From positions 1 to 34,660 of the forward strand of contig JAAYQC010000197.1 of assembly GCA_012519515.1 (NCBI GenBank): a stretch of 34,660 nt of DNA, given 5' to 3'. The notes below the pieces were generated by a model. That model did no database searches, was not told the origin of the DNA, and was given only the letters and a program-made list of their open reading frames with translations. This document shows, in pieces, positions 3,101-29,499 of the stretch (its first letter is position 1; each line of letters starts with the position of its first letter). The stretch comes from Bacteroidales bacterium (GTDB lineage: Bacteria; Bacteroidota; Bacteroidia; Bacteroidales; VadinHA17). The translations under genes were made by a program, and so were the position numbers.

Positions 3101-3916
3101 GTCGAAGTGTCGTCGGAACTCAATTACGACTATTTCCTGTTCCTTGTAAACGGAAATGAAATAGTAAGAAAATCGGGCGAAACAGGATGGGAAGAGATCA
3201 CTGCCCCTGTTGAAGCCGGGCTGAATGTACTCGAATGGACATATAGGAAGGATAACTCTGTTTCCCAGGGAGGAGATGCTGCATGGATCGACCTTATTGA
3301 CTTCTCACAAACATCAGTTGTGAAATATATCAGCAGGGACCTGGAAGTGGCAAGGATTGTAAGCCCCGTTCAGAAAGATGTTTACGGCCAGGAAATTATC
3401 GCGGTGAATGTACTTAACATGGGAAGAGATACCATCAACGGGTTTTCCCTTGCATATTCGGTTAATAACAGACAGCCGGTAATCCAGCATTTCAACGAGA
3501 AAATTGCACCCTTCCAGGATTCATTGACCGTCGAATTTGAAAGAAGGGCCGACCTTGATCTCAGCGGCACATACGACATTGTTGTGTACGGTCTCGGCAA
3601 TAATGATGAGTACCTGATGAATGACACTCTGAAAGTCAGCCTGGTGAACACGGATGTGAATGAGTCGGCAAAGGTGTTCCCAAATCCTTTCTCCGACCGG
3701 ATTAACATAATTATTAATTCGAGGACCGACAGGGCTGTCAGGGTCAAACTTACCACCACCACGGGCGAACAGGTCATTTCATTGAGAGAACCCATTACTG
3801 CCGGAGAAAACCAGATCAGCCTTAATACTTCTAACATTGGTCCCGGAATGTATATCTTAAGCATCAGCGAACCCGGCATTCCCAGGGCTTACTCCCTGGT
3901 AAAAATAAAACGCTGA
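140..3916 (+). CDS. Gingipain-like C25 cysteine protease with T9SS sorting domain
   Basis: A large secreted protease of 1258 residues. The N-terminus is a signal peptide ending near Gln-Ser-Gly-Ala-Gln (about residue 26). A propeptide-like region (about 30-245) precedes a C25 catalytic domain (about 247-620) with the His of a Gly-His-Gly motif at residue 455 and the Cys of Asn-Ala-Cys at 488, the gingipain dyad. The domain closes with the usual Tyr-Ala-Val-Leu-Gly-Asp-Pro-Ser segment. Next come beta-sandwich, CARDB-like regions. The last 80 residues (FPNPF..., then GMYILSI and a basic end) form a type A T9SS sorting domain, so the protein should cross the outer membrane and be released or anchored to the surface. 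The start is a TTG at 140: no ATG gives the complete signal peptide. Family by motifs is sure; substrate specificity is not known. Confidence 0.93.
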   Translation: MFRLGICKLAGAILGFLLMSVQSGAQTGNKFIYRFSGNLQDKPVIAGEGSIVINYSLPELSIDNITNDNGIFYRLSAPGHSKTADPGKPELPVFSRLVSIPSGTGYKIRISDVISTSIAPSGRNIKGRLFPAQPGEIKQDLPGKPDFVIDRKLYSSRGVIGNDTVRIETLGRLRGKDLSTLVISPVRYNPSSNSLEVITSMKIEITYPGGIFSHAKSSGGGESPLFAFTFGKGVLNYYPDEIINDYSDQPVEMIIVTDTSYRKVLEPFFRWKRQKGFRLNVLYYGEGLAGSHFSELKKSIAEIYNASKAEGHPPEYLLIIGDVTKVPYYGTGNVTDMYYGEFDGHGAFLPDMYIGRIPAKDTASARTVAEKIIQYEKHMFADTNRFQSNALALAGKDASYESYMNGQVRYAVDNYLTAANRINEYHFYYPDGFTKKDSVMKLISEGLSFINYSGHGSSAGWLHIDIKSPDIKKLSNANMYPFIISNACRTAQFNDTASFGNKMLVSRNKGAIGFIGCTNDSYWDEDFTWAIGPGTPNENPKYSDTGLGALDRLFHTHGELPSDWYVSMGQINYAGNLAVSSTSSLKKKYYWETYAVLGDPSLMPVIGTPQNFNISLPDTLPRGITSWSLTADPFSYVAISDFENLWDASHASPSGAVTLDIPAFSGDSCLLVITGQNRIPVIKTIYFANSTRGYINLSSSEINDSEENNNKLADFGESFWLKLKIANLGQTGISDLTASISSDSEWITINNSTALIPSIPGRSEITLDNALQLTLDENVPDQGIVTIDLSLKDNLTEKKYKIDIRVHAPRLEIINCIVNDALHGNNNAAAEPGESFNLVFQVRNLGSSSTSGQFYINPQGEKLEIIDPDIKSGTLQFGSISEIPVAAKLAESARHGEHISLRSVLDCSPFIVNKDFTIRVGKVRENFESSSFRSYPWINLSEKPWVVTQTNAFDGVISARSGLISHNNASRLIMRTEFPEPDTVKFFVEVSSELNYDYFLFLVNGNEIVRKSGETGWEEITAPVEAGLNVLEWTYRKDNSVSQGGDAAWIDLIDFSQTSVVKYISRDLEVARIVSPVQKDVYGQEIIAVNVLNMGRDTINGFSLAYSVNNRQPVIQHFNEKIAPFQDSLTVEFERRADLDLSGTYDIVVYGLGNNDEYLMNDTLKVSLVNTDVNESAKVFPNPFSDRINIIINSRTDRAVRVKLTTTTGEQVISLREPITAGENQISLNTSNIGPGMYILSISEPGIPRAYSLVKIKR

Positions 3917-4134: not shown

Positions 4135-4881
4135 CTACAGCTCCTTGATTTTAATATTCCTGAACCATACGTTATTGCCATGGTCCTGCAGACCAATGTA
4201 GCCTTCCCTGGCAGGATCAACAAATCTTGGCCAATCCTTGAACTTTGAATTTGCCACCATGTTTTTCCAGTCATCCGTCCAAAGATGGAATTCAACCACA
4301 TTGGCGCCGTTCTGCTTGAATACAACGGTTCCCTGATAACACAGGATGCCTGCCGTGTTCCATTCGCCGGCCGGCTTGGTGTTCTGCGGATTTGCAGGAA
4401 TAAGATCATATAGAGATCCTGCCTTGCGGTTTCCGTCTACACCAAGCTGAGCATCGGGGTGACGCTCATTGTCGAGTATCTGCATCTCGGGAGAAGACAT
4501 AAAAATTGGTTCATCGGGAACTTCCTGAGCCAGGAAGAATATACCGCTGTTGCCTCCCGGTTCTATTTTCCATTCAAGCGATAGTTCGAAATTGCTGAAT
4601 TTTTTGTCATAAATGATATCGCCTCCTGCTCCGCCAGCTTCACCTGCACCCGAACCGATGCAATGAAGTGTGCCATCAACTATCTCCCAACCTGCCGGGG
4701 GAAAAGTTGACTTATTGTAACCACGCCAGCCGTCGGTCGAGGTTCCGTCAAAAAGTACTGTCCATCCTTCATCCGCGGCAGCAGCCTGTGAACCTGCTTT
4801 TTTGCCTTTCGAACCGCAGGATGCTGTCAGACCAAGGATAAGAACACATGATAAAGACATGATAACGAAATGTTTCATCAT
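4135..4881 (-). CDS. DUF1080 (3-keto-disaccharide hydrolase family) lipoprotein
   Basis: A 248-residue exported lipoprotein: a hydrophobic leader ends in the lipobox Leu-Thr-Ala-Ser-Cys (Cys22). The rest is one DUF1080 concanavalin-like domain (about 38-248) with hallmark segments LFDGTSTDGW, GGNSGIFF, EMQILDN, AGSLYDL and a final GLQDHGNNVWFRNIKI. Members of this family hydrolyse or eliminate 3-keto-glycosides, products of sugar oxidation at C3. That the next gene upstream on the same strand is a Gfo/Idh/MocA oxidoreductase fits this role, but the substrate is inferred. It is paralogous to the gene at 6668-7462. Two ATGs in tandem (4881 and 4878) are possible starts. An unusual nested repeat occupies its upstream region. 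Confidence 0.9.
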   Translation of the reverse strand: MMKHFVIMSLSCVLILGLTASCGSKGKKAGSQAAAADEGWTVLFDGTSTDGWRGYNKSTFPPAGWEIVDGTLHCIGSGAGEAGGAGGDIIYDKKFSNFELSLEWKIEPGGNSGIFFLAQEVPDEPIFMSSPEMQILDNERHPDAQLGVDGNRKAGSLYDLIPANPQNTKPAGEWNTAGILCYQGTVVFKQNGANVVEFHLWTDDWKNMVANSKFKDWPRFVDPAREGYIGLQDHGNNVWFRNIKIKEL

Positions 4882-4882
4882 A

Positions 4883-4996
4883 ATATAATTTTGATTTTAA
4901 TGGTATGATGGAACCCACATGTTTGAAAATTATATTCATACGTGTTTGTGTATGTAACACATGTGGGTTTCATCAGTATATAATTTTGATTTTAAT
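4883..4996. repeat. 19-bp direct repeats enclosing an imperfect inverted repeat
   Basis: ATATAATTTTGATTTTAAT occurs exactly at 4883-4901 and again at 4978-4996. Between the copies is a 17-bp inverted repeat (TGATGGAACCCACATGT at 4906-4922, its complement at 4959-4975, one G-T mismatch), which itself encloses a shorter CATAC/GTATG pair (4937-4941, 4950-4954). The layout of flanking direct repeats around terminal inverted repeats resembles a miniature mobile element with a target duplication, but it could equally be a leader structure or operator for the DUF1080 gene that starts at 4881. Confidence 0.6.
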
Positions 4997-5007
4997 ATAA
5001 TTAATAT

Positions 5008-5032
5008 GCGGAGACGGCTATGCCGTCTCCGC
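5008..5032 (-). terminator. Hairpin terminator of the 5055-6542 gene
   Basis: A perfect 11-bp GC-rich stem (5008-5018 with 5022-5032) with a 3-nt loop. It starts 22 nt past the stop codon of the minus-strand oxidoreductase and is followed on that strand by an AT-rich tail (ATATTAATTATATT), not a pure T run. An intrinsic terminator is the best reading. Confidence 0.7.
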
Positions 5033-5054
5033 TAATATTCAAGTGCTTAGGATA

Positions 5055-6542
5055 TTATGCAGGCATATCGGGCAATGACCATGGAGCACGGTAGGTATGC
5101 TTGATCATTTCGTTTGCAAATTCCTGAGCATTAATGGTAAGGTTAGGCCTGTCGAACTTAGGATCACCGTCTATGATGGTGAAGTTGTCGGAGATGGTAA
5201 GTCTTACCTTGTCATCAGCCGAGACATTCTTGAACTCCATCTTATCACCGTCCCATTCGAGTTCCTTATTGAGTCCCTGCAGTCTGACGGCAAGAACACC
5301 CATAACAACCATTTCATTGAAAGGACCTGCTTCGGAGAAGTCGGATTTTGGCTTCACCCTGCTTTCCGGACTTTCCTTGCAAGCGCGTACCCAGTCCATT
5401 TCATGAGATACACCGTCAGGAAGCCTGCGCTCGGTTTTGGGAGAAGTGGGAACACGGCCTGAGAGCAGCCACGGATCCCTTCCATAGCAACCGGAGATGA
5501 GTTTATCCTTTGTTCCGTGGAAGATAGCCCCGCCACCGGCGTTGTTCATATTCTTTCCGGCTGGCCATCCTGCTGGTTTGGCAGGCTGCAATCCGCCGTC
5601 GTACCAGATTACTTCCACTTCCGGATAGGTCATTTTTGATCTTTTTGGAGTCGGTCTGGCAGGGAATGTCAGTTTAACCATTTGTGCATTCGGGGCACAA
5701 TCGGTAAGCAGCAGGGTTGAACTGCCCTGTGCTTTTATTGGGTACATGAGCTTAAGGCCCTTGAACACAGGATGCAGAATATGACATGCCATATCGCCCA
5801 ATGCACCTGTTCCAAAGTCCCACCAGCCGCGCCAGTTCCATGGTGTGTAAAGACTGTTGTAGGGGCGCATCTTTGCCGGACCGACGAAGAGGTCCCAGTT
5901 GAGTGTGTCAGGAACCCACTCACCATTGGGAACATTGAGGCCCTGTGGCCAAATCGGCCTGTCGGTGAAAGTTTCAACTTGCCTGACTTCTCCAATCTCG
6001 CCGTTCTGCAGCCATTCAACAGTCAGGTTGACACCTTCGCCCGATGATCCCTGGTTACCCATCTGTGTGGCAACCTTGTACTTATCAGCAAGCTTTGTAA
6101 GCAGCCTCGATTCATACACCGTGTGAGTCAAAGGTTTCTGAACATAAACATGCTTCCCGAGAGTCATGGCGTGAGCAGCAATAATGGCATGAGTATGGTC
6201 GGCCGTTGCAACGATAACTGCATCAATCGACTTACCCATTTCATCATACATCTTGCGCCAGTCCCAGTAACGCTTGGCATTGGGATGCGCTTCGAAAACC
6301 TTCTTCGAATAGCCCCAGTCTACATCGCATAAAGCAACAATGTTCTCTGTCGGGGCAACTGCTCTCAGGTTCGAGTTACCCATGCCCCCGATTCCTACGA
6401 CAGCAATATTCAGCTTGTCACTCGGAGCCCTGTGGCCCATTCCGCTGACAACCGAGCCTGGAATAATGGTAAGCCCTGCGGCTACAGCCCCGGTTGTTCC
6501 GATAAAATTGCGTCTCGTAATCTGTTTGGATTTTTCTTTCAT
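5055..6542 (-). CDS. Tat-exported Gfo/Idh/MocA family oxidoreductase
   Basis: A 495-residue NAD(P)-dependent sugar oxidoreductase. The start at 6542 is chosen because it places a twin-arginine signal (Thr-Arg-Arg-Asn-Phe-Ile-Gly) at residues 9-15 followed by a hydrophobic stretch; an upstream hydrophobic extension in the same frame has no clear start context. The Rossmann motif VGIGGMG is near residue 50, and Gln-Lys-Pro, the EKP-type catalytic lysine motif, follows at about 140. The C-terminal half is the usual alpha/beta substrate domain. Tat export implies folding with its cofactor before transport. It sits between two exported DUF1080 proteins on one strand, which suggests oxidation of a glycoside at C3 followed by DUF1080 cleavage. 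The role is inferred; the family is clear. Confidence 0.9.
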   Translation of the reverse strand: MKEKSKQITRRNFIGTTGAVAAGLTIIPGSVVSGMGHRAPSDKLNIAVVGIGGMGNSNLRAVAPTENIVALCDVDWGYSKKVFEAHPNAKRYWDWRKMYDEMGKSIDAVIVATADHTHAIIAAHAMTLGKHVYVQKPLTHTVYESRLLTKLADKYKVATQMGNQGSSGEGVNLTVEWLQNGEIGEVRQVETFTDRPIWPQGLNVPNGEWVPDTLNWDLFVGPAKMRPYNSLYTPWNWRGWWDFGTGALGDMACHILHPVFKGLKLMYPIKAQGSSTLLLTDCAPNAQMVKLTFPARPTPKRSKMTYPEVEVIWYDGGLQPAKPAGWPAGKNMNNAGGGAIFHGTKDKLISGCYGRDPWLLSGRVPTSPKTERRLPDGVSHEMDWVRACKESPESRVKPKSDFSEAGPFNEMVVMGVLAVRLQGLNKELEWDGDKMEFKNVSADDKVRLTISDNFTIIDGDPKFDRPNLTINAQEFANEMIKHTYRAPWSLPDMPA

Positions 6543-6584
6543 TGTCAGGTATTTTAAGTTTGTTATTAAGATTGGATTAATTAT

Positions 6585-6617
6585 CAAAAATAGTAATTTA
6601 TATATAAAAAACAGCAA
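6585..6617 (-). promoter_or_regulatory. Bacteroidota-type promoter for the oxidoreductase
   Basis: On the minus strand, TATTTTTG (6592-6585) matches the TANNTTTG -7 box and a TTG (6617-6615) lies 22 nt upstream in the -33 position. The box is 42 nt before the ATG at 6542. It overlaps the terminator of the gene upstream. Confidence 0.55.
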
Positions 6618-6627
6618 TCATTTGCTG
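6606..6627 (-). terminator. Intrinsic terminator of the second DUF1080 gene
   Basis: CAGCAA (6612-6617) pairs with TTGCTG (6622-6627) over a 4-nt loop; on the minus strand six T follow. It lies about 40 nt past the stop codon at 6668. Its tail is identical to that of the other DUF1080 terminator near 4066. Confidence 0.7.
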
Positions 6628-6667
6628 GCAAGCGACAAAGGATTGTCTGTTTTTTCTAAATGTCTGA

Positions 6668-7462
6668 TTACAACTCCCTTATCCAGATATTCCTGTAGGC
6701 AACCGGATTACCGTGGTCCTGAAGAACCAGCGGCATTGCGCCATGCTTTCTGATTGAATACTCCGGAATACCGATGTAGAGTGTCGGGCCTCTGAGACTG
6801 ACATTGTTCTGAATCAGAACACCATTGTGTAAAACGGTCACCCTTGGAGGTGTGAAATATGATAAGCTGTCCTCTCCAAAACGCGGCGCGGTGTAAATAA
6901 TATCATAACACTGCCATTCCCCGGGCTTGCGGCTTGCATTGACAAGGGGTGCATACTGCTTGTACAGGCTTCCGGCCTGACCCTGAACGTAGGTCGGGTT
7001 GTCATAGCTGTCAAGTACCTGAACCTCGTAAAGGCTCTGAAGATATACACCGCTGTTTCCCCTTCCCTGTCCGTCACCCTGAACTACCGATGGCGACTTC
7101 CATTCTATGTGAAGCTGGAAATCATTGAATTTCCTTTTTGTCTGAATAACACCCGATCCTTTGACACAAACAAGGGCGCCATTCTCCACTACCCATTTTG
7201 TAGGATTACCCCTTGCATCCTCCCACTCCTTGTTTACATCCGAACCGTCAAACAGAACAATGGCATCAGACGGAGGCATACCAACCTGCGCGCCGGGCTG
7301 AATGACAGGTACGGCAGGCTCAAAGAACTCTGTCATCTGGGGTGTCATCCTTGCAGGATACTCCTGCTTCTGCTGAGACTGAGCCGGTCTGCCTGGTTGT
7401 CCCTGCACGGAGCAAAAGACAAAAGGCATAAGAATCAAAATTGAGATAAACAGTTTTTTTAT
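6668..7462 (-). CDS. Exported DUF1080 protein, second paralogue
   Basis: A DUF1080 (3-keto-disaccharide hydrolase family) protein with an N-terminal signal peptide, a Gln/Pro-rich linker (about residues 24-60) and one DUF1080 domain with VLFDGSDVNKEW, GRGNSGVYLQ, YEVQVLDSYDN, AGSLYKQ and VLQDHGNPVAYRNIWIREL. No lipobox is evident. The start is uncertain. The complete signal peptide (basic Lys-Lys, then LFISILILMPF, cleavage near Gly-Gln) can be read only from an ATA codon at 7462, just after an in-frame TAG at 7471-7469; the usable standard starts, TTG at 7438 and ATG at 7429, both cut off the basic end. Its role beside the oxidoreductase is presumably cleavage of 3-oxidised sugars, an inference from the family. 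Confidence 0.87.
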   Translation of the reverse strand: MKKLFISILILMPFVFCSVQGQPGRPAQSQQKQEYPARMTPQMTEFFEPAVPVIQPGAQVGMPPSDAIVLFDGSDVNKEWEDARGNPTKWVVENGALVCVKGSGVIQTKRKFNDFQLHIEWKSPSVVQGDGQGRGNSGVYLQSLYEVQVLDSYDNPTYVQGQAGSLYKQYAPLVNASRKPGEWQCYDIIYTAPRFGEDSLSYFTPPRVTVLHNGVLIQNNVSLRGPTLYIGIPEYSIRKHGAMPLVLQDHGNPVAYRNIWIREL

Positions 7463-18927: not shown

Positions 18928-20619
18928 ATGACCCGAAAGATATTTATCGCTTCAACGCTTCTTCTGATACCTATAATTACTATGGCTCAGGACAGAGTTA
19001 CAGGGCGGGACTTCGCAACACGGTCGGAGGTTATTGCCCAGAACGGAATGGCGGCAACCAGCCAGCCTCTGGCAACACAGGCTGCCATTGACATCCTTCA
19101 AAAGGGAGGAAATGCCATTGATGCCGCCATCGCGGCAAATGCCGTGCTTGGAGTTGTTGAACCCACCGGATGTGGAATTGGCGGAGATCTGTTTGCAATA
19201 ATATGGAGTTCTGAAAAACAGAAACTTTACGGACTGAATGCAAGCGGCAGATCGCCCCGGTCGCTAAAGATGGATTATTTCAAAAAAAACGGCTACCAGT
19301 TCATCCCCGCTACCGGCCCCCTGCCTGTCAGCGTACCCGGTTGCGTCGACGGGTGGTATGAAATGCACGAATTATTCGGAAGGATTCCGATGCGCGACAT
19401 TCTACAGCCGGCCATCAATTATGCCCGAAACGGTTTCCCTGTTACGGAGGTGATTGCCTTCTATCTCGAAAGCAACGTCAGGGCATTAAGTGATTTCCCC
19501 AACATAAAGGAAACTTATATGCCGAAAGGCAAGGTGCCTGCAAAGGGTGAGATATTTAAAAATCCGAACCTTGCCAATACCCTGGAAAAAATCGCGAAGG
19601 GAGGCAGAAACGAGTTCTACAGGGGAAGTATAGCCAAGACAATCGACGCCTTCATGAAAGCTAATGGAGGATTTCTCAGCTATGATGACCTTTCCCGGCA
19701 CAGTTCCGAATGGATACAACCTGTAAAATCCTCCTACAGGGGATATGATATATGGGAGCTTCCACCTAACGGACAGGGTATTGCAACAATCCAGATACTA
19801 AACATCCTGGAAGGATTCGACATCGCGCGAATGGGCTTCGGATCGGCACAGTATATACATACGTTCACCGAGGCCAAAAAACTGGCATTCGAAGACAGGG
19901 CAAAATACTACGCCGACCAAAGGTTCAGCAAGGTTCCCGTGACTCAGCTTATTTCAAAAAAATATGCCGCTGAAAGGAGAAAGCTGATCAATCCGTCCAG
20001 GGCCGCCAGAATAGTCAACTCAGGAAAGATTGAAGCCGGAAACACCATCTACCTTACCGTCGCCGACCGATTCGGCAACATGGTTTCGCTCATTCAAAGC
20101 AATTACCGCGGTATGGGATCAGGAATGTGTCCTACCGGTCTTGGCTTCATACTTCAGGACAGAGGCGAGATGTTCAGCCTCGATCCCGGACATGCAAATG
20201 CCTATGCTCCGGGCAAAAGACCCTTTCATACCATAATACCCGGTTTCATTACAAAAAACGGCAAACCATGGATTAGCTTCGGGGTTATGGGAGGAGACAT
20301 GCAGCCTCAGGGACATGCCCAGATAATCGTGAACCTGATTGATTTTAAGATGAACCTTCAGGAAGCCGGTGATGCTCCCAGGATATACCATACCGGATCG
20401 TCCGAACCGACAGGCCAGGTGATGACCGACGGCGGAATCCTCTACCTCGAAAGCGGAATCCGCTGGGAAGAGATACGGCAACTCCTTACCATGGGCCATA
20501 ATGTCCAGTGGAACCTTGGATCCTACGGCGGATATCAGGCCATAATGTGGGATGAAAAAAACAAGGTATGGTACGGAGCTTCGGAATCCAGAAAAGACGG
20601 ACAGGCATCAGGCTATTGA
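18928..20619 (+). CDS. ggt: Gamma-glutamyltransferase (glutathione hydrolase family)
   Basis: A 563-residue exported N-terminal nucleophile hydrolase. A Sec signal peptide (1-20, ending ITMAQ) precedes the conserved block 'GGNAIDAAIAANAVLGVVEP' and 'GIGGDLFAI'. The autoprocessing and catalytic threonine is probably Thr373 in 'GNTIYLTVADRFGNMVS', where the family often has Thr-Thr; the second Thr is Ile here. The small subunit would be residues 373-563 with 'GMGSGMCPTGLGFILQDRG' and 'MGGDMQPQGHAQ'. The enzyme cleaves gamma-glutamyl bonds (glutathione and related compounds) in the periplasm. Its last 12 nt overlap the end of the minus-strand complex operon. Confidence 0.92.
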   Translation: MTRKIFIASTLLLIPIITMAQDRVTGRDFATRSEVIAQNGMAATSQPLATQAAIDILQKGGNAIDAAIAANAVLGVVEPTGCGIGGDLFAIIWSSEKQKLYGLNASGRSPRSLKMDYFKKNGYQFIPATGPLPVSVPGCVDGWYEMHELFGRIPMRDILQPAINYARNGFPVTEVIAFYLESNVRALSDFPNIKETYMPKGKVPAKGEIFKNPNLANTLEKIAKGGRNEFYRGSIAKTIDAFMKANGGFLSYDDLSRHSSEWIQPVKSSYRGYDIWELPPNGQGIATIQILNILEGFDIARMGFGSAQYIHTFTEAKKLAFEDRAKYYADQRFSKVPVTQLISKKYAAERRKLINPSRAARIVNSGKIEAGNTIYLTVADRFGNMVSLIQSNYRGMGSGMCPTGLGFILQDRGEMFSLDPGHANAYAPGKRPFHTIIPGFITKNGKPWISFGVMGGDMQPQGHAQIIVNLIDFKMNLQEAGDAPRIYHTGSSEPTGQVMTDGGILYLESGIRWEEIRQLLTMGHNVQWNLGSYGGYQAIMWDEKNKVWYGASESRKDGQASGY

Positions 20620-21363
20620 CAAAAGGTCGAGTATCCCGTTTATGAATGTAAGCGGATGTGCCGGATTTCCCGGAACATAAAGGTCAACATGATGTTCCTC
20701 GATGAATCTTCTGTCTATCGCGGGTGAAGCGGCATACATTCCACCGCTGATGGCATCGGTACCTGCAAGTATAATCACTTTCGGATCAGGAACTGCTTCA
20801 TATGTCAGCCTTAAAGCTTCGGCCATGTTAGCGGAAACAGGTCCTGTGATCACAATCCCGTCGGCATGACGGGGCGACGCAACAAACTCAACTCCATGAC
20901 GTCCGAGGTCGAAATTCACATTTCCTGCCGCATTCAACTCCATCTCGCATGAATTGTCGCCTCCGGCCGATACCTGCCTCAGCTTGAGCGAACGCCTGAA
21001 AATCTTCCTTATCTCTTCACGTACGACATTCCCGTCAAACCGCAGCGGAGTATCAACACCCGGACTGATCACAAGATCCTCTCTCCTGGAGCAGGCAATC
21101 CTGTAATCATTTGTGAACCTTATTTTCTCCCTGAGACAAAACTCGCATTCCCTGCAAAAAACACATCTTCCCAGATCGATTGCCCCGCTTTTATCATCTA
21201 TAGCGCCCGAAGGACAAAGGGAACTGACAATTTCAATTTCCTTTCCGGTGATATCGGCAGAAATAACCGGTCTTCCCCTGAAAAGCTCCGACACGGGCTG
21301 ACGCCTGAGATCCTTTACATACTGGATGCCGTGCTGCCTTAATATTTTGATTTCCTTGTACAT
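20608..21363 (-). CDS. hyfI: HyfI/NuoB-like subunit fused to a 4Fe-4S domain, proximal cluster ligands lost
   Basis: A 251-residue soluble subunit of the membrane complex. Residues 45-80 are a ferredoxin-like domain with Cys50 (LCPSGAI) and Cys67, 70, 73, 76 (CVFCRECEFC), enough for one 4Fe-4S cluster. Residues 125-250 have the NuoB/HycG fold: 'ASPRHADGIVITGPVS', 'AISGGMY', 'YVPGNPAHPL'. In hydrogenases and complex I four cysteines here bind the proximal cluster. By position, the first is Asp136, the second Cys139 is kept, the third is Asp203 and the fourth is Asn233. Each codon was read on the minus strand (GAC, TGC, GAT, AAT). The proximal cluster is therefore probably missing or greatly altered. 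It is the last gene of the operon, 18 nt after the large subunit. Confidence 0.88.
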   Translation of the reverse strand: MYKEIKILRQHGIQYVKDLRRQPVSELFRGRPVISADITGKEIEIVSSLCPSGAIDDKSGAIDLGRCVFCRECEFCLREKIRFTNDYRIACSRREDLVISPGVDTPLRFDGNVVREEIRKIFRRSLKLRQVSAGGDNSCEMELNAAGNVNFDLGRHGVEFVASPRHADGIVITGPVSANMAEALRLTYEAVPDPKVIILAGTDAISGGMYAASPAIDRRFIEEHHVDLYVPGNPAHPLTFINGILDLLSIA

Positions 21364-21381
21364 CTTTCGGGTATGAAGCTG

Positions 21382-22899
21382 TTATAGGTCATTTCCACAA
21401 TAACTCAGATTAAAACTCTTGTTGCAAACCGGAAAATCAGATATCTCCTGTTGCCTGACTGCTATGGCCAGAGCCATCCAGTTATGGAACGACGGATCCT
21501 TAATCTTGTAATGAATGATGTTCCCGCTTTTATCGGTTATTGCAGAATGGCAGATTTCACCCCTCCATCCTTCAACAAGCGAAAGGGCGAAGCTGTCGGG
21601 ACTAAGGCTGAGATTATAATCCGGGCCGGAATTACCGGCAGGCAGATTATTCCAGGCTGATATAAGTTCTATAATAAGTTCTGTTGACTCCCTCACTTCC
21701 TCTGCCCGTAACAGCCCGCGCGCGAGAACATCTCCCGTGTCGAAAACAAGCGGTTCAAAAGAGCTTTCGCCGTAGTACTGGAAAGGATGCGACCATCTTA
21801 TATCGCGCCTGACATCACAAGTCCGTGCAGCCATCCCCACCGCTCCGATATCCAGCGCCTGACGGCGGGTCACACAACCGATATCCTCGAACCTCGCGAG
21901 AACACTTGGAAGTGAATAGATCCTGCCGGATATTGCAGCAAAGCGCTTCCCGACGTCCTCAAGCACCTGAAGTATTTTATCAACAACCTTACGGTTCATC
22001 ATGTAATTACTGCCCCCCGGACGGACCAGTCCCTTTCCGAACCTGTTCCCGCACCAGAACTGTGTGGTGTTTATTATTTCAGTTCGAAGGGCTTCACACA
22101 CGACCTGGCCAAACTGGTAAGCAACATCCGCGCAAAGGGCTGCCGTATCGCCGATATGCACCGCTATCCTTTCCAGCTCCAGGGCAATGCACCTTTCAAT
22201 CTGAAGTGAGGTCGCCGGCAGCGTTCCGGACAGTGACTCAATCAGCTGGGCATACGACAGAGCGTAGCCCACCGCGGTATCACCCACGATATTATCACAC
22301 ATAACACACCGGCTTATGCCATTCCTGCTTTCCGACAGCAGCTTCTCCGCGGCCCTGTGCTGATAACCAAGCTGTATCTCAAGATGCAGAACTTTTTCAC
22401 CGTTGCAGATAAACCTGAAATGACCCGGCTCTATCACTCCGGCATGAACGGGACCAACTCCTACTTCATGAAGCTCCTCTCCTTCTATACTGTAAAACGG
22501 ATAGTTATCCATAACCGAGGTCCTGTCGGCCCGGTAGTGGGGATACCTTACAGGCTTCAGCCAGGGATGTCCTTCAAAAACAACACCGTAATTCTCATGA
22601 ATTTCACGCTCAAACACATGAAGCTGAGGAATTTCCTTTGAAAGCGAGGGAACCGTGCTTCTTTCCCGCGGAAGTTCCGTTGAATACAGCCTGAAGCAAT
22701 GATCATTGTCATTGGCCAGGCAGCAGAATAGCCGCGGGGCTCCGCTCATTTCCACCGCGTACAGGGCAGCGCAATGCTCAGCCTCATCCTTCATCATCAA
22801 CACAGTCTGATCAAAGAAGCCGGCATAATCCAGAACGGGTATGCTGTCGAGGCTTATCGTGAAGGGATTGGATGATATTTTCCTGTAAAGCTCACTCAT
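21382..22899 (-). CDS. hyfG: HyfG/HycE-like large subunit (NuoC-NuoD fusion) without NiFe ligands
   Basis: A 505-residue protein from the ATG at 22899 (22932 is an alternative that overlaps the previous gene). About 1-120 is a NuoC-like domain (FEREIHENYGVVFEGHPWLKP) and the rest is NuoD/HycE-like with 'VGPVHAGVIEPGHFRF' and 'QLGYQHRAAEKLL'. Where NiFe enzymes have Cys-Gly-X-Cys, this protein has Val-Gly-Asp-Thr (VGDTAVGYALSYAQ); where they have Asp-Pro-Cys-X2-Cys near the end, it has 'CNKSFNLSYCGNDL'. Both NiFe-binding pairs are gone, so it cannot be a normal hydrogenase. A separate Cys-X2-Cys lies 4 to 7 residues before the lost pair. It presumably couples an unknown redox reaction, perhaps with quinone, to the membrane arm. 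Confidence 0.9.
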   Translation of the reverse strand: MSELYRKISSNPFTISLDSIPVLDYAGFFDQTVLMMKDEAEHCAALYAVEMSGAPRLFCCLANDNDHCFRLYSTELPRERSTVPSLSKEIPQLHVFEREIHENYGVVFEGHPWLKPVRYPHYRADRTSVMDNYPFYSIEGEELHEVGVGPVHAGVIEPGHFRFICNGEKVLHLEIQLGYQHRAAEKLLSESRNGISRCVMCDNIVGDTAVGYALSYAQLIESLSGTLPATSLQIERCIALELERIAVHIGDTAALCADVAYQFGQVVCEALRTEIINTTQFWCGNRFGKGLVRPGGSNYMMNRKVVDKILQVLEDVGKRFAAISGRIYSLPSVLARFEDIGCVTRRQALDIGAVGMAARTCDVRRDIRWSHPFQYYGESSFEPLVFDTGDVLARGLLRAEEVRESTELIIELISAWNNLPAGNSGPDYNLSLSPDSFALSLVEGWRGEICHSAITDKSGNIIHYKIKDPSFHNWMALAIAVRQQEISDFPVCNKSFNLSYCGNDL

Positions 22900-22906
22900 T
22901 GCATTG

Positions 22907-24331
22907 TCATTTTGGAAGAAGACTGATACCATGATTAATCAGATCTGACACAAAAGAGGGCTGGAAGAAACACATCAGCACCACTATTCCGAGAAGGATA
23001 TACTGGCTGACCGTCTCAATCCCATTAACCTTGCCGGGTTCAATGTTCTCATCAGCGTTGCGCGGACTGGAGAACAGTATATGCATGATGCGTGTGCTCA
23101 TTGCATATACAATAAAACAAAGCAATATCACGGCGGAAATCATGAGCGCCCATTGATTGTTGGCAAGCATCCCCTTGAAGATCAGGAACTCGCTTATAAA
23201 TAAGCCGGATGGGGGGATAGCAAGTATGCAAATCATTCCAAGCAGCAAAACCATTGCTCCCGAAGGATACAGCTTCATATACCTTCCGCAGTTATCGAGC
23301 TTGAAGGTGTGAAGTACCCTCGACAGCTGCCCCATCTGGAAGAACATGCTCGATTTTGCCAGCGAATGAAGAATCACGAGAAGTATCCCGGCATAATATC
23401 CTATACCTCCCACTCCGATGGCAATTGCCACCAGTCCCATATTCTCAAGACTTGAGTATGCCAGCATGCGTTTGAGATGCTTTGCCTTCAGCATGTAGCC
23501 GGAAGCCACAAGGAGAGAGAGCAGTCCCGCGATTATCAGCACGCTGTTCATAAAGGGAAATATCGATGACGTTGAGAAAATGGTATAGACCCTGAAGATC
23601 GCCAGGAAACCCACATTCATAAGCGTGGTGGATATCAAAGCGCTTATGGGCGGAGGTGCCACCGAGTGTGCATCAATCGTAACCGTGTGCATCGGGAAAA
23701 GTCCCATTTTCGTACTGAAACCTGTCAGGACAAACAGGAATGATATCCTGAGATACATCGGGTTTGCCTGGTTTACCAGAGTGGCAAGTGATGTGAATGA
23801 CAGGCTTGCAGCATCTTCCCTGCCGTATATGAATCCGAGGAAAAGAATGCCGAAATAGGCAAGGGCAATGCCCGCCGAACAGATGAAAACATATTTCCAG
23901 GTTGCTTCGAGGGCAACAGCCGTCCGGTCGTGATAGATGAGCGATGCAACAGCAAGTGTCGTGGCTTCAACAAAGACCCAGAGCACTGTCATGCCATTGG
24001 CAAGATAGGCCCCGGTCATGAAGGTCATTAGGGCAACCAGGGAAGCATGATAGATATTGAATCTCCTGGTATCATCTCCGGCCGTGTAAATAAAACCATG
24101 GTATACAACCGGAATTGCAAGAATTGAAAGCACTGAAAGAAGCAGGATCCCGGTTCCGGTATAGGTAAAAAACCTGAGTTCCGTGAGGTCAAGCCTGGTC
24201 CAGGCATAAACACTCAGACCAATATGCATCAATGCATAGCCCCACATCAGTATCCGGGTAAGGACTCTGTTCCTGAAGAGCAGCATCGCCAGGCAGATAA
24301 GTACGGATATGATAAAAAACGACAGCAGCAT
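22907..24331 (-). CDS. hyfF: HyfF-like antiporter-type membrane subunit
   Basis: A 474-residue inner membrane protein of the proton-conducting membrane transporter family (NuoL/M/N, Mrp), with about 13-14 hydrophobic helices. The proton-path Glu in helix 5 is Glu122 (LWVFVEATTL) and the helix 7 Lys is Lys208 (FSTKMGLFPMHT). The segment corresponding to the second lysine helix reads 'TTLMNVGFLAI' with Asn239, whereas the HyfB-like partner has Lys there. It lies 1 nt after hyfE and overlaps or nearly abuts the large subunit gene, so it is translated within the operon. Role: ion translocation in the membrane arm; the ion, proton or sodium, is unknown. Confidence 0.9.
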   Translation of the reverse strand: MLLSFFIISVLICLAMLLFRNRVLTRILMWGYALMHIGLSVYAWTRLDLTELRFFTYTGTGILLLSVLSILAIPVVYHGFIYTAGDDTRRFNIYHASLVALMTFMTGAYLANGMTVLWVFVEATTLAVASLIYHDRTAVALEATWKYVFICSAGIALAYFGILFLGFIYGREDAASLSFTSLATLVNQANPMYLRISFLFVLTGFSTKMGLFPMHTVTIDAHSVAPPPISALISTTLMNVGFLAIFRVYTIFSTSSIFPFMNSVLIIAGLLSLLVASGYMLKAKHLKRMLAYSSLENMGLVAIAIGVGGIGYYAGILLVILHSLAKSSMFFQMGQLSRVLHTFKLDNCGRYMKLYPSGAMVLLLGMICILAIPPSGLFISEFLIFKGMLANNQWALMISAVILLCFIVYAMSTRIMHILFSSPRNADENIEPGKVNGIETVSQYILLGIVVLMCFFQPSFVSDLINHGISLLPK

Positions 24332-24332
24332 T

Positions 24333-24947
24333 TCAGTCTTTCAGCATTGTTAATTCGTTAACATATGGTTTGAGGCGCAATCCGAAGAAGCCCAGTATAA
24401 GCACCCCGACAAAAATATCCAGAAGTATTCCTATGTTGATCAGCATGGGCATTTCGTTTCCCACAGCGATCGAAAAAATGAAAACTGCATTTTCAATTAT
24501 CAGAAAGCCTGTAAGATGTGAAATGATCAGCCTGTGGGTGACAATAAGCAGCAGCCCGGTGAAGAGGCTGAACAGGGCAATCGTCATGTAAATAACGTCC
24601 ACATAAGGATTCCTGAGCGACCATGAGAGAATGAGGCTGGCAAACAGCGCCGCAACCGACAGGATGACCAGATAGAAACCCGGCATTGCCTGCCTGTGAA
24701 CCTTCGTCACACCCGATACCTTCGTAATGCGCCTGAGCAGATAGGGTATCACAATTGCCTTGATTATAATCGTCTCCGCGATTATGAAGATCAGGTTTAC
24801 CGTGTTAATCTCGATAAGCTCCAAAATAGCGATTCCGCAAAGAAGCAGGCCCTGAATGCCAATGAGCCGTATGTAGGTAACCAGTCTTTCAGCAGAAGCG
24901 AAATAGACCAGGCTTATTGCAAACATTATTATAAGGTATATCACCAT
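24333..24947 (-). CDS. hyfE: HyfE-like small membrane subunit
   Basis: A 204-residue protein with six or seven hydrophobic helices and almost no soluble part, like HyfE, which combines a NuoK-like region with extra helices. The typical 'IIAETIIIKAIVIPYLLRR' loop, with an acidic residue in a helix (Glu in AETI), is present, and the protein ends in 'LRLKPYVNELTMLKD'. The start at 24947 avoids overlap with hyfC, 4 nt after its stop codon; an upstream start at 25001 would add 18 residues inside hyfC. It probably links the HyfB- and HyfF-like channels to the HyfC-like subunit. Confidence 0.87.
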   Translation of the reverse strand: MVIYLIIMFAISLVYFASAERLVTYIRLIGIQGLLLCGIAILELIEINTVNLIFIIAETIIIKAIVIPYLLRRITKVSGVTKVHRQAMPGFYLVILSVAALFASLILSWSLRNPYVDVIYMTIALFSLFTGLLLIVTHRLIISHLTGFLIIENAVFIFSIAVGNEMPMLINIGILLDIFVGVLILGFFGLRLKPYVNELTMLKD

Positions 24948-24951
24948 CGCT

Positions 24952-25860
24952 CTAAAGATTAAGATTGAGAATAAGAATGACAGCGAAGGCAAGTATTGCA
25001 ATTGCTGAAACCGTAAGTATGAACTTCGGGTTCTTGTTCATCTTGTTTCTTGCCCTGAATGACTCGAGAAACCCGACAATAATGGCAAACAAAGCCTGAA
25101 CAGCAAGAAAGAGAGCAATCTGGAGGTAAATATTCCAGCCCGCGGGAACAACTACATTGTATATGAGCGATCCGTATACGGCGAATTTCAACCATGTAGT
25201 TATATGAATCAGTGCCTTGTCGAATCCGCTGTAGTCAAGTATCATAACCTCATGGATCATGGTAAGTTCAAGATGCGTTTTAGGATCATCGACAGGAAGA
25301 CGGCTGTTTTCAACAAGCGCGATCTGGATAAATATATAAAAGCCTATAATGCTGAATATAAGCACATAATGATTACTTGTGATGAAAAAATTACTAAATA
25401 TATCTGTAAAAGAAACATATCCGGTGAACATTGCAAAGGTAGCCATCAGTATAAAGAAGGCCGGCTCGATAAGCATTGCAAAAAACGCTTCACGGCTGGC
25501 TCCCATTCCTTCAAAACTGCTGCCGGTATCAAGGGCGGCAATTATCATGAAGAAACGTCCCAGCGACAGGATATATGCAAAAAACACAAAGTCGCCCTCA
25601 AAGTGAATCAGGGCTTCCTGTTTTCCGAAAGGAATCACGAGGATGGCACACAGAACGGTTGCAAGCGAAATAACCGGCGCAATCTGGAAGATAAGCCCTG
25701 TAGTCGTGCTGAAAACGCTCCCTTTTCTCAACAGCACTCCTGCATCCCTCAAAGGCTGAAGGATACCCGGTCCCCTGCGCCCTGACGCGATGCTCTTTGT
25801 CCTCAGGATTATCCCGGGAAAGAACATAGCCGATACCAGTATCATTATCAGTGCTGCCAT
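24952..25860 (-). CDS. hyfC: HyfC/HycD-like (NuoH-type) membrane subunit
   Basis: A 302-residue NuoH-type inner membrane protein with eight hydrophobic helices, which docks the soluble arm. The cytoplasmic loop motifs are clear: 'GASREAFFAMLIEP' near 122-135 and 'ENSRLPVDDPKTHLELTMIHEVM' (about 186-209), rich in the conserved acidic residues at the coupling site of complex I and group 4 hydrogenases. It starts 1 nt after the hyfB stop codon and ends 4 nt before hyfE, which marks close translational coupling. Confidence 0.92.
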   Translation of the reverse strand: MAALIMILVSAMFFPGIILRTKSIASGRRGPGILQPLRDAGVLLRKGSVFSTTTGLIFQIAPVISLATVLCAILVIPFGKQEALIHFEGDFVFFAYILSLGRFFMIIAALDTGSSFEGMGASREAFFAMLIEPAFFILMATFAMFTGYVSFTDIFSNFFITSNHYVLIFSIIGFYIFIQIALVENSRLPVDDPKTHLELTMIHEVMILDYSGFDKALIHITTWLKFAVYGSLIYNVVVPAGWNIYLQIALFLAVQALFAIIVGFLESFRARNKMNKNPKFILTVSAIAILAFAVILILNLNL

Positions 25861-25861
25861 A

Positions 25862-27853
25862 TCAGATTATATTTAACCAGGTTAGCAATAGCACAAATAG
25901 TATAAAAACAAAAGCATACAGAATGTAGTGCTGCACTTTCCCGGTCTGCATCACGGCAATCTTCTTGAGAAGTTCCGACAACAGGCCGGCAGGCTTTTCC
26001 ACTATTACCTTCTGAAATACATCATCGACGCGTGAGCTGAAACTTCTGCCTTCAGGGAACAACTCATCCTCCTCTATCTCCGGCATCATCTTTTTTGTTC
26101 CGATAACAGGTTTAGCTACATGGTTATAGTTATAAGCAAAGGATGTTGAGGTGTACTGTTGCTTCGGACCCGTGGCGGTATATCCGCAACCCCATGTCGG
26201 ACCCGTACTCAGCTTTACCGACCTTAGATGAATCTTCCTGTACAGGGCAAGGGCAACAACAAGAACAATGAACACGCCTGCAATAAGGCTTATCGATGCC
26301 AGCCCCGGAAGGCTTGTTTCAGCAATCCTTCTCATGCCTTCAATCCCGAACCCGGTTCCAACAATATCAAATACCGGCCTGACAAACAAGGGAGAAGCAA
26401 GTCCGATCAGGATGATAAGGGCCAGGGAAATAAACTGCGGCATGATCATTCCCCTTTCAACTTCAGAGGCTGAAACGGCATGCTGAGAACGCGGTTCACC
26501 CAGAAATGCAATCCCGAATGCCTTGGTGAAACAGAAGACGGCAAGACCCCCTATAAGCGCCAATACCACGATTGATCCTAACACGAGTATCGACTGGTGC
26601 AGCCCTGATGAGGGAAGATCGCGGAACATGCCAAGGTAAATGAGGTATTCGGAAATAAAACCGTTAAAGGGAGGAAGACCGCAGATAGCCAGTGATCCTG
26701 CCAGAAAAAGCAATGAGGTATAGGGCATTTTCTTCATCAGCCCGCCCAGCTTTTCTATGTCGCGGGTGTGTGTGGCCGTGTATACTGATCCGGCACTGAA
26801 GAACAACAGCGATTTAAAGAGGGAGTGGTTCAGCACATGAAGCAATCCCCCGCTGAAACCCAGCAGGCTGAGCGTATTGTTGCCAGTGGCAAGTCCTATC
26901 ACCCCCAATCCTGTCCCAATGCCTATTATCCCGATGTTCTCGATACTGTGGTAAGCAAGCAGCTTCTTCATATCGTGCTGTACGATAGCCATCATCACAC
27001 CAAGCAAACCTGATACAAGTGAAACGATGAGTATAAGTATGCCTATCTGAAGGAGATCGTGCCTGACATAGAGCAATACCCTGAGTATCCCGTATATTCC
27101 CATTTTTATCATCACTCCCGACATCACACCCGAAACATGCGATGGCGCTGCCGGATTAGCCCGGGGAAGCCATGAGTGAAGGGGAATGAAACCGGCTTTG
27201 ATACCGAAGCCGATAAAGAACAGAATGAAAAGCAGGATGTTTGAATGGCCACTGAAGAAAACTCCAAGTGAATCAAAGCTCATACTTCCGGTCTCATTGG
27301 CAGAAATGAGAAATGCAAACATAAGGAAGAACATCCCGACATGCATCTGGATAAGATAACTGATGCCTGTCTTCATAATGCTCTTTTCTTCCGCATCAAA
27401 GATGACAAGCATGAAGGATGACAGAGCCATTATCTCCCAGACTATCAGGAACGACAGTCCGTCGCGCGCTATTAGCACGAGGATCATCGAGAAATAGAGC
27501 CACAGGTAGGAAAAATAGTGAAGTGAAAAGCTCAATGAATTCTTGCTCCCGTAATACTGCTTCAGATAGCCCTTTGCATAGAGCAGGCCTATCAGAAGGG
27601 TTAAGTTAACCACGAGGATGAAAAAAGCCGACAGCCCGTCAACGGCAAAGATTACTGGCTTTCCGGTCAGAGGAATCATTCCTTCAAGCCTCAGTTCGGA
27701 GCTTAATCCCGAAAGCGCTTCAATGCTCCATACCGAACTTATTGCAACACCGGCGGCAAGAACAATAAGAGCCGTGGTATGCTTCAGGACTTTAGGTACC
27801 GGAAAAAGGGCAAATGACAGAATCAGAACTACAAAAAATAGCGCTATATTCAT
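25862..27853 (-). CDS. hyfB: HyfB-like (Mrp/NuoL-type) antiporter subunit
   Basis: A 663-residue membrane protein and first gene of the six-gene operon. The proton-conducting core (about 60-480) has Glu140 in helix 5 (FLIVWEIMAL), Lys219 (GFGIKAGFIPLHSWLP) and Lys250 (MSGVMIKMGIYGI), with 'LAYHSIENIG' and 'LNHSLFKSLLFF' further on, all usual for active ion translocation. The C-terminal part includes the cytoplasmic stretch 'GPTWGCGYTATGPKQQYTSTS', cited here in part, common to HyfB/Mrp proteins, and a final membrane helix (about 641-661). The residues suggest the ion channel is intact although the redox part of the complex is altered. Confidence 0.92.
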   Translation of the reverse strand: MNIALFFVVLILSFALFPVPKVLKHTTALIVLAAGVAISSVWSIEALSGLSSELRLEGMIPLTGKPVIFAVDGLSAFFILVVNLTLLIGLLYAKGYLKQYYGSKNSLSFSLHYFSYLWLYFSMILVLIARDGLSFLIVWEIMALSSFMLVIFDAEEKSIMKTGISYLIQMHVGMFFLMFAFLISANETGSMSFDSLGVFFSGHSNILLFILFFIGFGIKAGFIPLHSWLPRANPAAPSHVSGVMSGVMIKMGIYGILRVLLYVRHDLLQIGILILIVSLVSGLLGVMMAIVQHDMKKLLAYHSIENIGIIGIGTGLGVIGLATGNNTLSLLGFSGGLLHVLNHSLFKSLLFFSAGSVYTATHTRDIEKLGGLMKKMPYTSLLFLAGSLAICGLPPFNGFISEYLIYLGMFRDLPSSGLHQSILVLGSIVVLALIGGLAVFCFTKAFGIAFLGEPRSQHAVSASEVERGMIMPQFISLALIILIGLASPLFVRPVFDIVGTGFGIEGMRRIAETSLPGLASISLIAGVFIVLVVALALYRKIHLRSVKLSTGPTWGCGYTATGPKQQYTSTSFAYNYNHVAKPVIGTKKMMPEIEEDELFPEGRSFSSRVDDVFQKVIVEKPAGLLSELLKKIAVMQTGKVQHYILYAFVFILFVLLLTWLNII

Positions 27854-28002: not shown

Positions 28003-29499
28003 TCAGGCATTCACGTTAAGCTGAACATTCTCCCTTGCTTCAGTTACCTCGATAACCCGCGTGTTGCCGCCTTTCTCAAGGTTAATATCGTGAGGCTGGT
28101 TGGTACGCCAGTTTCCGTTGGTGAAATCCGGTACGTCAATCGACCGCGACCTGTTTGCAACCGACCATTCGCTGAGAGGCGATATTGAACTCCATAATGC
28201 CCCGTCGTACACATCCTGATCGAGCGGCAAACCGTTCCTCAGGCAGTCGATGAGCCTCCAGTCCATGATGAAATCCATGCCTCCATGACCGCCGACTTTC
28301 TTTGCCATCTCCCCTACTCTTTTTACAATCTCGGGTGTGAACTTCTCGGTTACATCCCTGAGTTCCTCCTCACTGAGCCAGTTGTGCCCCATTGCAATAC
28401 GTTCGGGTGCCGGATACTTGCTGGCGGCACCTGCAGTTCCGCTTATAACATGAAGCCTCGAATAGGGCCTGACCGATGAAACATCGTGCTGGATAAGTAT
28501 TGTTCTTCCAAGATTCGTCCGGACGAGCGATGTATTCATGTTTCCCCGGTATGTCCTGCCGGCATAGGGAGCATAGAACTCATCTCCCGCGGCAAGTTCA
28601 TTGGCGTGCTTGCCCATTGTAAAATCATTGCCCGACATTGAGGTTAGATATTCCATCTTGTCGCCCCTGTTGATGTTCATTATCTGGCAAACCGGACCCA
28701 GACCATGGGTTGGATAGAGGTTGCCGTTTCTTTCGGCATTCTCCTTCAGTCTCCACATACCCGTGTAGGCTCCGTCGGCCTGACGATCATCAATAGGCTT
28801 CTTGAAATTGTAGCCCATGAGATTGTGAATATACGCCCCCTCACCGTGAATAATGTCTCCGAACATGCCCTGCCTTGCCATATTCAGCGTGAGAAGCTCA
28901 AAGAAATCGTAACAGCAGTTTTCAAGCATCATGCAGTGTTTCTTTGTCTTCTCCGAGGTCTCTACAAGCTGCCAGGCTTCATCAATAGTCCGGCAAATCG
29001 GAACCTCACAGGCAACATGCTTCCCGTTCTCCATGGCATATACCGACATAGGGGTATGCCATACCCAGGGTGTACATATATAAATAAGGTCAAGATCTGG
29101 CATTTCAACAAGCTTCTTCCAGATATTCTCATCGCCGCTGAATTCCTGGGCTGCAGGCCTGCCTATACGCGAAAGGTAACGCTGTGATTCCTCCACGGCT
29201 GCCGGACGAAGATCGCCAAGCGCCTTTATTTCGACACCTTCAATGTATGAAAGTCTTTCAACCGCGCCTCCTCCCCTGTCACCCACTCCGATAAAGCCAA
29301 CTCTGACAACCGGAAGAGCCGGGGCTGCATATCCCGACATATTGAACTTTCCTGTATGAGGCCGCCTGACAGCTTCAAGAATCGATGATAGATTTGATTC
29401 CGGCTCCCTGGGGGCGCATCCTGAGAGTAATCCTCCGGCAAAGGCTCCGGCGCCTGCCACGGTTGCATGTTTCAAAAAATCGCGACGACTGCTTTTCAT
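28003..29499 (-). CDS. GH109-like Gfo/Idh/MocA protein, Tat lipoprotein
   Basis: A 498-residue exported protein. Its leader combines a twin-arginine motif (Ser-Arg-Arg-Asp-Phe-Leu-Lys, residues 4-10) with a lipobox (Leu-Leu-Ser-Gly-Cys28), so it is probably folded with NAD, exported and tethered to a membrane. The mature part opens with 'FNMSGYAAPALPVVRVGFIGVGDRG' in short form (Rossmann motif GVGDRG) and has 'WVWHTPMSVYAMENGKHVACEVP' and 'KKHCMMLENCCYDFFEL', typical of GH109 alpha-N-acetylgalactosaminidases, which cleave by an NAD-dependent oxidation-elimination. Substrate here is inferred only. Where other Gfo/Idh proteins have Glu-Lys-Pro, it has Glu-Val-Pro, as GH109 does. Confidence 0.88.
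   Translation of the reverse strand: MKSSRRDFLKHATVAGAGAFAGGLLSGCAPREPESNLSSILEAVRRPHTGKFNMSGYAAPALPVVRVGFIGVGDRGGGAVERLSYIEGVEIKALGDLRPAAVEESQRYLSRIGRPAAQEFSGDENIWKKLVEMPDLDLIYICTPWVWHTPMSVYAMENGKHVACEVPICRTIDEAWQLVETSEKTKKHCMMLENCCYDFFELLTLNMARQGMFGDIIHGEGAYIHNLMGYNFKKPIDDRQADGAYTGMWRLKENAERNGNLYPTHGLGPVCQIMNINRGDKMEYLTSMSGNDFTMGKHANELAAGDEFYAPYAGRTYRGNMNTSLVRTNLGRTILIQHDVSSVRPYSRLHVISGTAGAASKYPAPERIAMGHNWLSEEELRDVTEKFTPEIVKRVGEMAKKVGGHGGMDFIMDWRLIDCLRNGLPLDQDVYDGALWSSISPLSEWSVANRSRSIDVPDFTNGNWRTNQPHDINLEKGGNTRVIEVTEARENVQLNVNA

Follow-up and report, generated by a model that had tools for sequence, protein, structure and literature searches.

What does a membrane complex of the hydrogenase-4 type do once both its hydrogen-activating site and the last part of the electron path that leads to this site are missing? 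The question is raised by an operon of six co-directional genes, in the order B-C-E-F-G-HI, on the minus strand at positions 20608-27853 of contig JAAYQC010000197.1 from a Bacteroidales bacterium (assembly GCA_012519515.1); the whole stretch of 34,660 nucleotides that was analysed is referred to below as the window. An earlier sequence-only reading had described here a packed hydrogenase-4-like operon whose product cannot be a hydrogenase and resembles the Ehr complexes, and these statements hold. The explanation we propose, to which we give about an even chance, is that the product is a de-wired Ehr complex, i.e. a membrane ion translocator of the complex I family that would not be drivable by electrons via the usual chain of iron-sulfur (Fe-S) clusters, and would be coupled to a ligand or to ion gradients.

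The product of the last gene, which gave a NuoB-like match in the Pfam/NCBIfam scan, had earlier been called HyfI; this name is correct for its small-subunit domain, but the fused HyfH-type ferredoxin domain and the absence of three of the four proximal cysteines had been overlooked. In an alignment with HycG, MbhJ and NuoB, the places of the four cysteines that bind the proximal [4Fe-4S] cluster are occupied in HyfHI by D136, C139, D203 and N233, and the cysteine set of the outer (N6a-type) ferredoxin cluster is gone as well. The single cluster site that remains in the ferredoxin domain (C50, C67, C70 and C73) is taken by us, from the usual 2[4Fe-4S] pattern, to be that of the inner cluster. 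Conservation of all these positions (Table 1) was counted in 70 rows, i.e. the window and 69 of 80 loci picked by similarity alone. These 80 loci are the best of 265 relatives confirmed in named genomes; 11 of them were dropped since the small subunit is missing or cut to less than 85% length, and one has no large subunit that reaches this length. Judged by its ligands, the wire has kept its middle and lost both of its ends.

In complex I, MBH and formate hydrogenlyase (FHL), the proximal cluster passes electrons to the cavity. According to the proposed explanation, the membrane arm and the Ehr-type pocket would be kept and the electron path into the pocket would be cut: with the ligands of the proximal (N2-type) and outer clusters missing, the inner cluster would be an electrical island, acting as a structural strut or as a redox sensor, and ion movement through HyfB, HyfF, HyfC and HyfE would not be paid for by electrons that reach the cavity via the Fe-S chain. 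Its coupling could be to the ion gradients, in the manner of Mrp-like antiport, or to ligand binding or non-redox turnover in the pocket. In FHL, the relay steps are all <14 Å (PMC9474812). Without the last cluster, the gap between the inner cluster and the cavity would amount to about two relay steps, so that the usual chain would no longer deliver electrons to the cavity, and we infer that there is no through-electron transfer in the dewired complex.

Comparison with other Ehr sequences shows how sharply this state is separated from the four-cysteine ligand set. In a comparison of 92 rows, the dewired ones were defined by the residues themselves (D, any residue, D or A, and N at the four proximal places). 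A Variovorax sp. PBL-E5 plasmid and two genome surveys of the phylum supplied the wired relatives, one survey of 395 genomes, 17 of which gave a match at E <= 1e-22, and one of 294 genomes from another class, 54 of which matched at E <= 1e-30 and 53 were read (G538 was left out). The 92 rows split into 71 dewired ones, 20 Ehr rows with four proximal cysteines, and HyfI of E. coli, also with four; the large subunit of E. coli in this set has C-G-I-C and all 91 Ehr rows have G-D. With six further dewired rows (L086-L089, L200 and L217), there are 77 full orthologues in the dewired Bacteroidota clade, all of which possess D136 and N233, and with 41 further wired rows (37 loci and four plasmid rows) the wired ones number 61. 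The four proximal cysteines are kept in 61 of the 62 other Ehr small subunits, the exception being that of Allomeiothermus silvanus; these counts include the five plasmid Ehr rows, four of which keep them, and no intermediate proximal ligand set was found among the rows compared. One group of wired rows has lost outer-cluster cysteines yet retains the proximal four, which indicates that loss of the outer cluster also occurs alone. The titles of the best 80 loci name Bacteroidota groups, except for three 'uncultured bacterium' entries and one titled Fibrobacterales. Carriers with strain names (Petrimonas sp. IBARAKI, Breznakibacter xylanolyticus DSM 6779, Flavihumibacter profundi KCTC 62290, as well as A. 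silvanus DSM 9946) make the question testable.

In a 57-row tree calculated with the proximal ligand columns masked and including 36 of the 71 dewired rows, the dewired sequences form one clade (SH-aLRT 99), whose sister is fully wired, and the same clade is supported at 100/99 in a 42-row bootstrap tree. Dewiring thus has a single origin in Bacteroidota. In the tree of the large subunit, wired and dewired Ehr sequences group together (100/99), Hyc/Hyf joins this group (100/100) and Nuo stands apart, which places the window protein inside the Ehr clade and next to Hyc/Hyf. A. silvanus DSM 9946 (Deinococcota), in which the complex is encoded on plasmid pMESIL01, has also lost the outer and proximal cysteines and kept the inner four, with different residues at the lost places. 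An approximately unbiased (AU) test rejects a common origin of this case and the Bacteroidota dewired clade (p 4.6e-55); together with the different residues, this means that the same two-cluster loss arose at least twice.

In contrast to the wire, much of the pocket of the large subunit is kept in both groups. The places of the two NiFe-binding cysteine pairs are taken in HyfG by V-G-D-T and by a changed C-terminus, as had been reported earlier, and the four cysteines that characterize group 4 [NiFe] hydrogenases are absent; S-F-N-L-S-Y-C-G-N-D-L aligns with S-L-D-P-C-Y-S-C of hydrogenases. G217 and D218 are present in 80 of 80 large-subunit rows (the window and 79 relatives). Altogether 68 HyfG positions, including D218, N504, K505 and S510, are common to dewired and wired rows, and in the C-terminus the shared residues are N504, K505, S506, S510, Y511, G513 and D515. 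The nearest solved chain is HycE of formate hydrogenlyase (8.1e-33). We infer that D218, E168, R457 and N504-K505-S506 line a pocket, which in the proposed explanation would be the place of ligand binding or turnover. That the pocket signature has outlived the wire across a large clade constrains the job of Ehr complexes. A canonical quinone reductase is not supported, as I167 and G217 stand at the aligned places of the His and Tyr with which the 49-kDa subunit binds quinone (His38 and Tyr87 of Thermus Nqo4).

The window HyfG does contain C209-x-x-C212 and C512, which might suggest a [NiFe] hydrogenase with displaced ligands. We give practically no credence to this idea and reject it: positions 209 and 212 are Cys in only 10/80 and 5/80 rows, so the NiFe cysteines have not moved to that place, and HypD, the sole maturation gene sought, was not found in the window genome by a search that matches 4 of 14 control genomes. 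The earlier statement that maturation genes are missing from the window extends in this respect to the genome. Among 36 dewired genomes derived from the 80 loci, 21 have no HypD and 15 have it.

The membrane arm is preserved. E140, K219 and K250 of HyfB, listed in the sequence-only reading as retained ion-channel residues, are found in 58 of 58 rows, and HyfB also keeps H339, H343, K347 and E402. HyfC keeps D90, D111, E124, E132, E184, D191, E198, E204 and E266, and HyfF keeps E122, E142, K146, K208, R247 and K326; the compared charged channel residues of these three subunits are conserved across dewired, wired and E. coli rows. In nine loci (L035, L036, L050, L052, L060, L066, L121, L124 and L129) a second hyfB-like gene lies beside hyfB or between hyfB and hyfC, hence the family is not uniform in how many antiporter subunits it has.

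Several observations weigh against a de-wired translocator. C139 is kept in 50 of the 70 rows and would fit some other cofactor, and the invariant kept [4Fe-4S] site speaks for the survival of some redox role. The AlphaFold2 model of HyfI is good except for the N-terminus and loop 131-150, the latter having a pLDDT of only ~74; in HyfG the segments 141-171, 481-487 and 496-516 have pLDDT <50, and pocket geometry was therefore not used. Not all pocket residues are fixed: among the Ehr sequences of the large-subunit tree, the wired sister L119 alone has Lys instead of E168. Residue 233 of HyfB, which is His in 56 of 58 rows, is Asn in the window. For A. silvanus there is a single, long-branched sequence, and it lacks the G-D-[ST] motif. 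Ion movement is a prediction from the kept residues, and a cofactor may have been relocated into the vacated proximal site of the complex.

The last point leads to the main rival explanation, which we regard as a distinct if lesser possibility: the head group of a quinone, a flavin or a disulfide would occupy the vacated proximal site of HyfI, and the complex would still be electron-driven through a shortened wire. It would account for the inner cluster being kept in all 70 rows, supposedly within tunnelling range, for the invariance of the new residues D136 and N233, as if they bound something, and for the many dewired-specific residues in both subunits. That a redox site can move is suggested by MBS of Pyrococcus, where a three-Cys proximal cluster is proposed as the catalyst (PMC7684303). 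However, the outer cluster, which would receive the electrons, has been lost too, C139 and D203 vary, and the quinone positions hold I167 and G217.

Loss of four NiFe ligands and several Fe-S ligands could also be read as decay of a hydrogenase operon into a functionless remnant. In four metagenome-assembled genomes of Bacteroidales type (L034, L072, L078 and L080) hyfG stands without other subunits in its locus and hyfHI is found elsewhere (L086-L089), in at least three of them on a different contig, so the operon has been broken up there; in G005 the sole sign of HyfHI is a weak NuoB-like match. On the other hand, dN/dS (the ratio of nonsynonymous to synonymous substitution rates) is 0.03-0.12 in all six genes, the new residues are invariant, the clade is large, and most uncut loci carry all six genes. 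A pseudogene is rejected by the dN/dS values and the invariant new residues, and we consider decay very improbable.

The subunits and the pocket signature are the same as in wired Ehr complexes, and the operon could simply encode an ordinary ferredoxin- or formate-linked electron-driven pump, as has been guessed for other Ehr complexes. A complex of formate dehydrogenase with Ehr has been proposed in other phyla (PMC6349859), and the Ehr proteins of Geobacter are more abundant on formate than on hydrogen (PMC7894505). We find this reading clearly unlikely here, as the wire ligands are lost in every full dewired row that was read and the 80 loci, whose flanks are partly cut and were not individually annotated, showed no dehydrogenase as an obvious conserved neighbour. 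No partner gene stood out either in the flanks of these loci, many of which are cut short, and the commonest non-core flanking family occurs in 10 of the 80. The earlier suggestion of a redox-driven pump with an undiscovered partner is weakened by the missing proximal and outer ligands and by the absence of a partner in the flanks; its conformation-driven variant is the one we favour.

Ehr complexes are already known, e.g. from Geobacter, Nitrospira, Sulfobacillus and Margulisbacteria, and published accounts call their function unknown, and likewise the advantage they give. The window complex has what defines them, namely a group 4-like large subunit without NiFe ligands together with antiporter-like subunits; it shares their subunit set, loss of NiFe ligands and G-D-[ST] plus N-K-S-F signature, and is nested in their clade. 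It differs by the lost proximal and outer ligands from the Ehr rows used here, which are not the organisms of those papers. The Fe-S relay to the large subunit is a trait of the other Ehr rows in our set and does not form part of the published definition in its accessible portions. The Ehr without proximal and outer cluster ligands is the new variant: the open PMC literature, which was the scope of the search, yielded no description of an Ehr complex, a group 4 complex or a relative of complex I that lacks the proximal cluster.

Compared with Hyc/Hyf of E. coli, the complex is alike in subunit homology, gene order and membrane residues, but it has neither the NiFe site nor the proximal ligand set, HyfH and HyfI are fused, and the operon has no HyfA, HyfD or HyfJ gene. 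MBS is alike in having lost NiFe chemistry and kept the ion machine (PMC7684303), but its three-Cys proximal set is absent here, with only C139 left. Coupling of an antiporter-type subunit to chemistry other than redox has a precedent in DAB2 (DabA/DabB), where a complex I-type antiporter subunit takes part in membrane potential-coupled CO2 hydration (PMC13144422). The analogy concerns the mechanism only, since DabA is beta-carbonic anhydrase-like and unrelated to HyfG/HyfHI, and no carbonic anhydrase-like family was found among the six operon proteins in Pfam and NCBIfam. Complex I and Mrp antiporters share antiporter-like subunits with Glu/Lys residues; unlike complex I, the operon has no NADH module, no quinone residues and no N2 ligand set. 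Mrp antiporters are not known to have soluble subunits of the HyfG/HyfHI type, which the dewired complex possesses in addition. Machines of the complex I family are taken to be electron-driven, and how they couple electrons to ions has long been debated. A conserved natural family member that has the channel residues but no final cluster next to the cavity offers a test of this coupling: should the dewired complex move ions, electrons need not arrive in the cavity for coupling to work.

The features of the operon are collected in Table 1. The earlier reading gave gaps of 1-18 nt between the genes, which is correct for B-C (1 nt), E-F (1 nt), G-HI (18 nt) and also C-E (4 nt if hyfE starts at the ATG at 24947, Met19 of the listed frame in 62/62 rows, and not at the listed TTG at 25001); F-G is a 26-nt overlap as listed, or a 7-nt gap if hyfG starts at Met12. 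The assignment of hyfE to its HyfE-like family comes from NCBIfam only. An Rfam scan gave no match and a promoter scan no usable result.

Table 1. Genes of the operon and positions discussed in the text (residue counts are rows with the residue among rows compared)
Feature	Position	Strand	Evidence or conservation
hyfB, NuoL/HyfB-like antiporter subunit, 663 aa	25862..27853	-	NCBIfam NF005086 hydrogenase 4 subunit B, 1.3e-163
hyfC, NuoH-like membrane subunit, 302 aa	24952..25860	-	Pfam PF00146, 3.3e-32
hyfE, membrane subunit, 204 aa from conserved ATG (222 aa as listed)	24333..24947	-	NCBIfam NF008556, 1.9e-6
hyfF, second antiporter-like subunit, 474 aa	22907..24331	-	NCBIfam NF005045, 6.2e-71
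hyfG, large subunit, NuoC-like and NuoD-like domains, 516 aa (505 from Met12)	21382..22932	-	Pfam PF00329, 8.8e-9; PF00346, 1.1e-33
hyfHI fusion, 251 aa: N-terminal ferredoxin domain ~40-100, C-terminal small-subunit domain ~116-250	20608..21363	-	
HyfG V216-G217-D218-T219, at place of C-G-x-C	22276..22287	-	alignment
HyfG C-terminal N504-K-S-F-N-L-S-Y-C-G-N-D-L516, at place of D-P-C-x-x-C end	21385..21423	-	alignment
HyfHI C50, C67, C70, C73, sole remaining cluster site of ferredoxin domain	21145..21216	-	70/70
HyfHI D136 and C139, at place of proximal C-x-x-C	20947..20958	-	D136 70/70, C139 50/70
HyfHI D203, at place of third proximal Cys	20755..20757	-	Asp 64/70, Ala 6/70
HyfHI N233, at place of fourth proximal Cys	20665..20667	-	70/70

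The window genome (255 contigs, 97.1% complete) contains no Complex1_49kDa protein other than HyfG, and it encodes RnfC, four [FeFe]-hydrogenase-type matches and cytochrome bd. A NuoEFG NADH module was not found among the 26 window proteins scanned, the genome itself not having been searched for it. Replacement of complex I by the dewired complex is possible in the window genome and is not general, since 24 of the 36 dewired genomes carry another, stronger protein of the 49-kDa family (complex I or other group 4, undistinguished) and 12 have only HyfG-type matches.

Wired operons have neighbours of their own. In the wired-relative set, 47 of 55 loci carry at least one open reading frame upstream of hyfB; two of these 47 are dewired, without HTH-EIIA and without SulP genes. 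A protein with a helix-turn-helix (HTH) domain and a PTS EIIA-type domain heads or enters the operon in 37 of the 47, and in most wired Ehr operons with flanks an HTH_17 plus PTS EIIA_2 protein directly precedes hyfB (L120-L131, L195-L199, L201, L203-L209, L211, L213-L216 and L218-L224; in L223 and L224 the gene lies between B and C). A SulP transporter is found beside or inside the operon in 10 of the 47 (11 of 55), in three lineages (L132:5940-8141, L229, L119:611-2371, L194, L123:78-1790 and kin), one form being a SulP-STAS-EIIA fusion between hyfG and hyfI. Where they were compared, the seven SulPa loci proved closely related (four of them share 86-90% identity with the fifth, the query) and hence are not independent. 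SulP and HTH-EIIA genes gave no match in dewired loci at 1e-4, and literature searches on SulP brought up no title linking it to Ehr. We suggest that this context of wired operons points to ion, anion or pH balance. A rather unlikely but broader idea is that the pocket of the whole Ehr family carries out non-redox chemistry (e.g. ion exchange or the interconversion of CO2 and bicarbonate) and couples it to ion movement through the complex I-type subunits, with the Fe-S wire an inherited accessory dropped at least twice; SulP from three lineages at wired Ehr operons would fit bicarbonate handling.

Other neighbourhoods vary. In L119 (genome G107), which is itself wired and sister to the dewired clade, a KdpA gene adjoins the operon. 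On plasmid 3 of Variovorax sp. PBL-E5 (L093:3728-19251) the small subunit of the Ehr operon is fused, and a second set of hyfB-like, NuoH-like, HyfE-like and hyfF genes starts ~3.4 kb past the operon and is truncated by the end of the locus. An Alicyclobacillus plasmid (L097:8740-10236) encodes a lone Ehr-like large subunit near DUF190 and CrcB genes, with no further subunit annotated within 9 kb. In the window itself, 140-3916 encodes a large peptidase of family C25 that carries a Por secretion tail. At 4135-7438 and 28003-29499 lie two genes for 3-keto-disaccharide hydrolases and two for GFO/IDH/MocA oxidoreductases, of which one has a GH109-type domain; these genes perhaps form a sugar-oxidation set around the operon.

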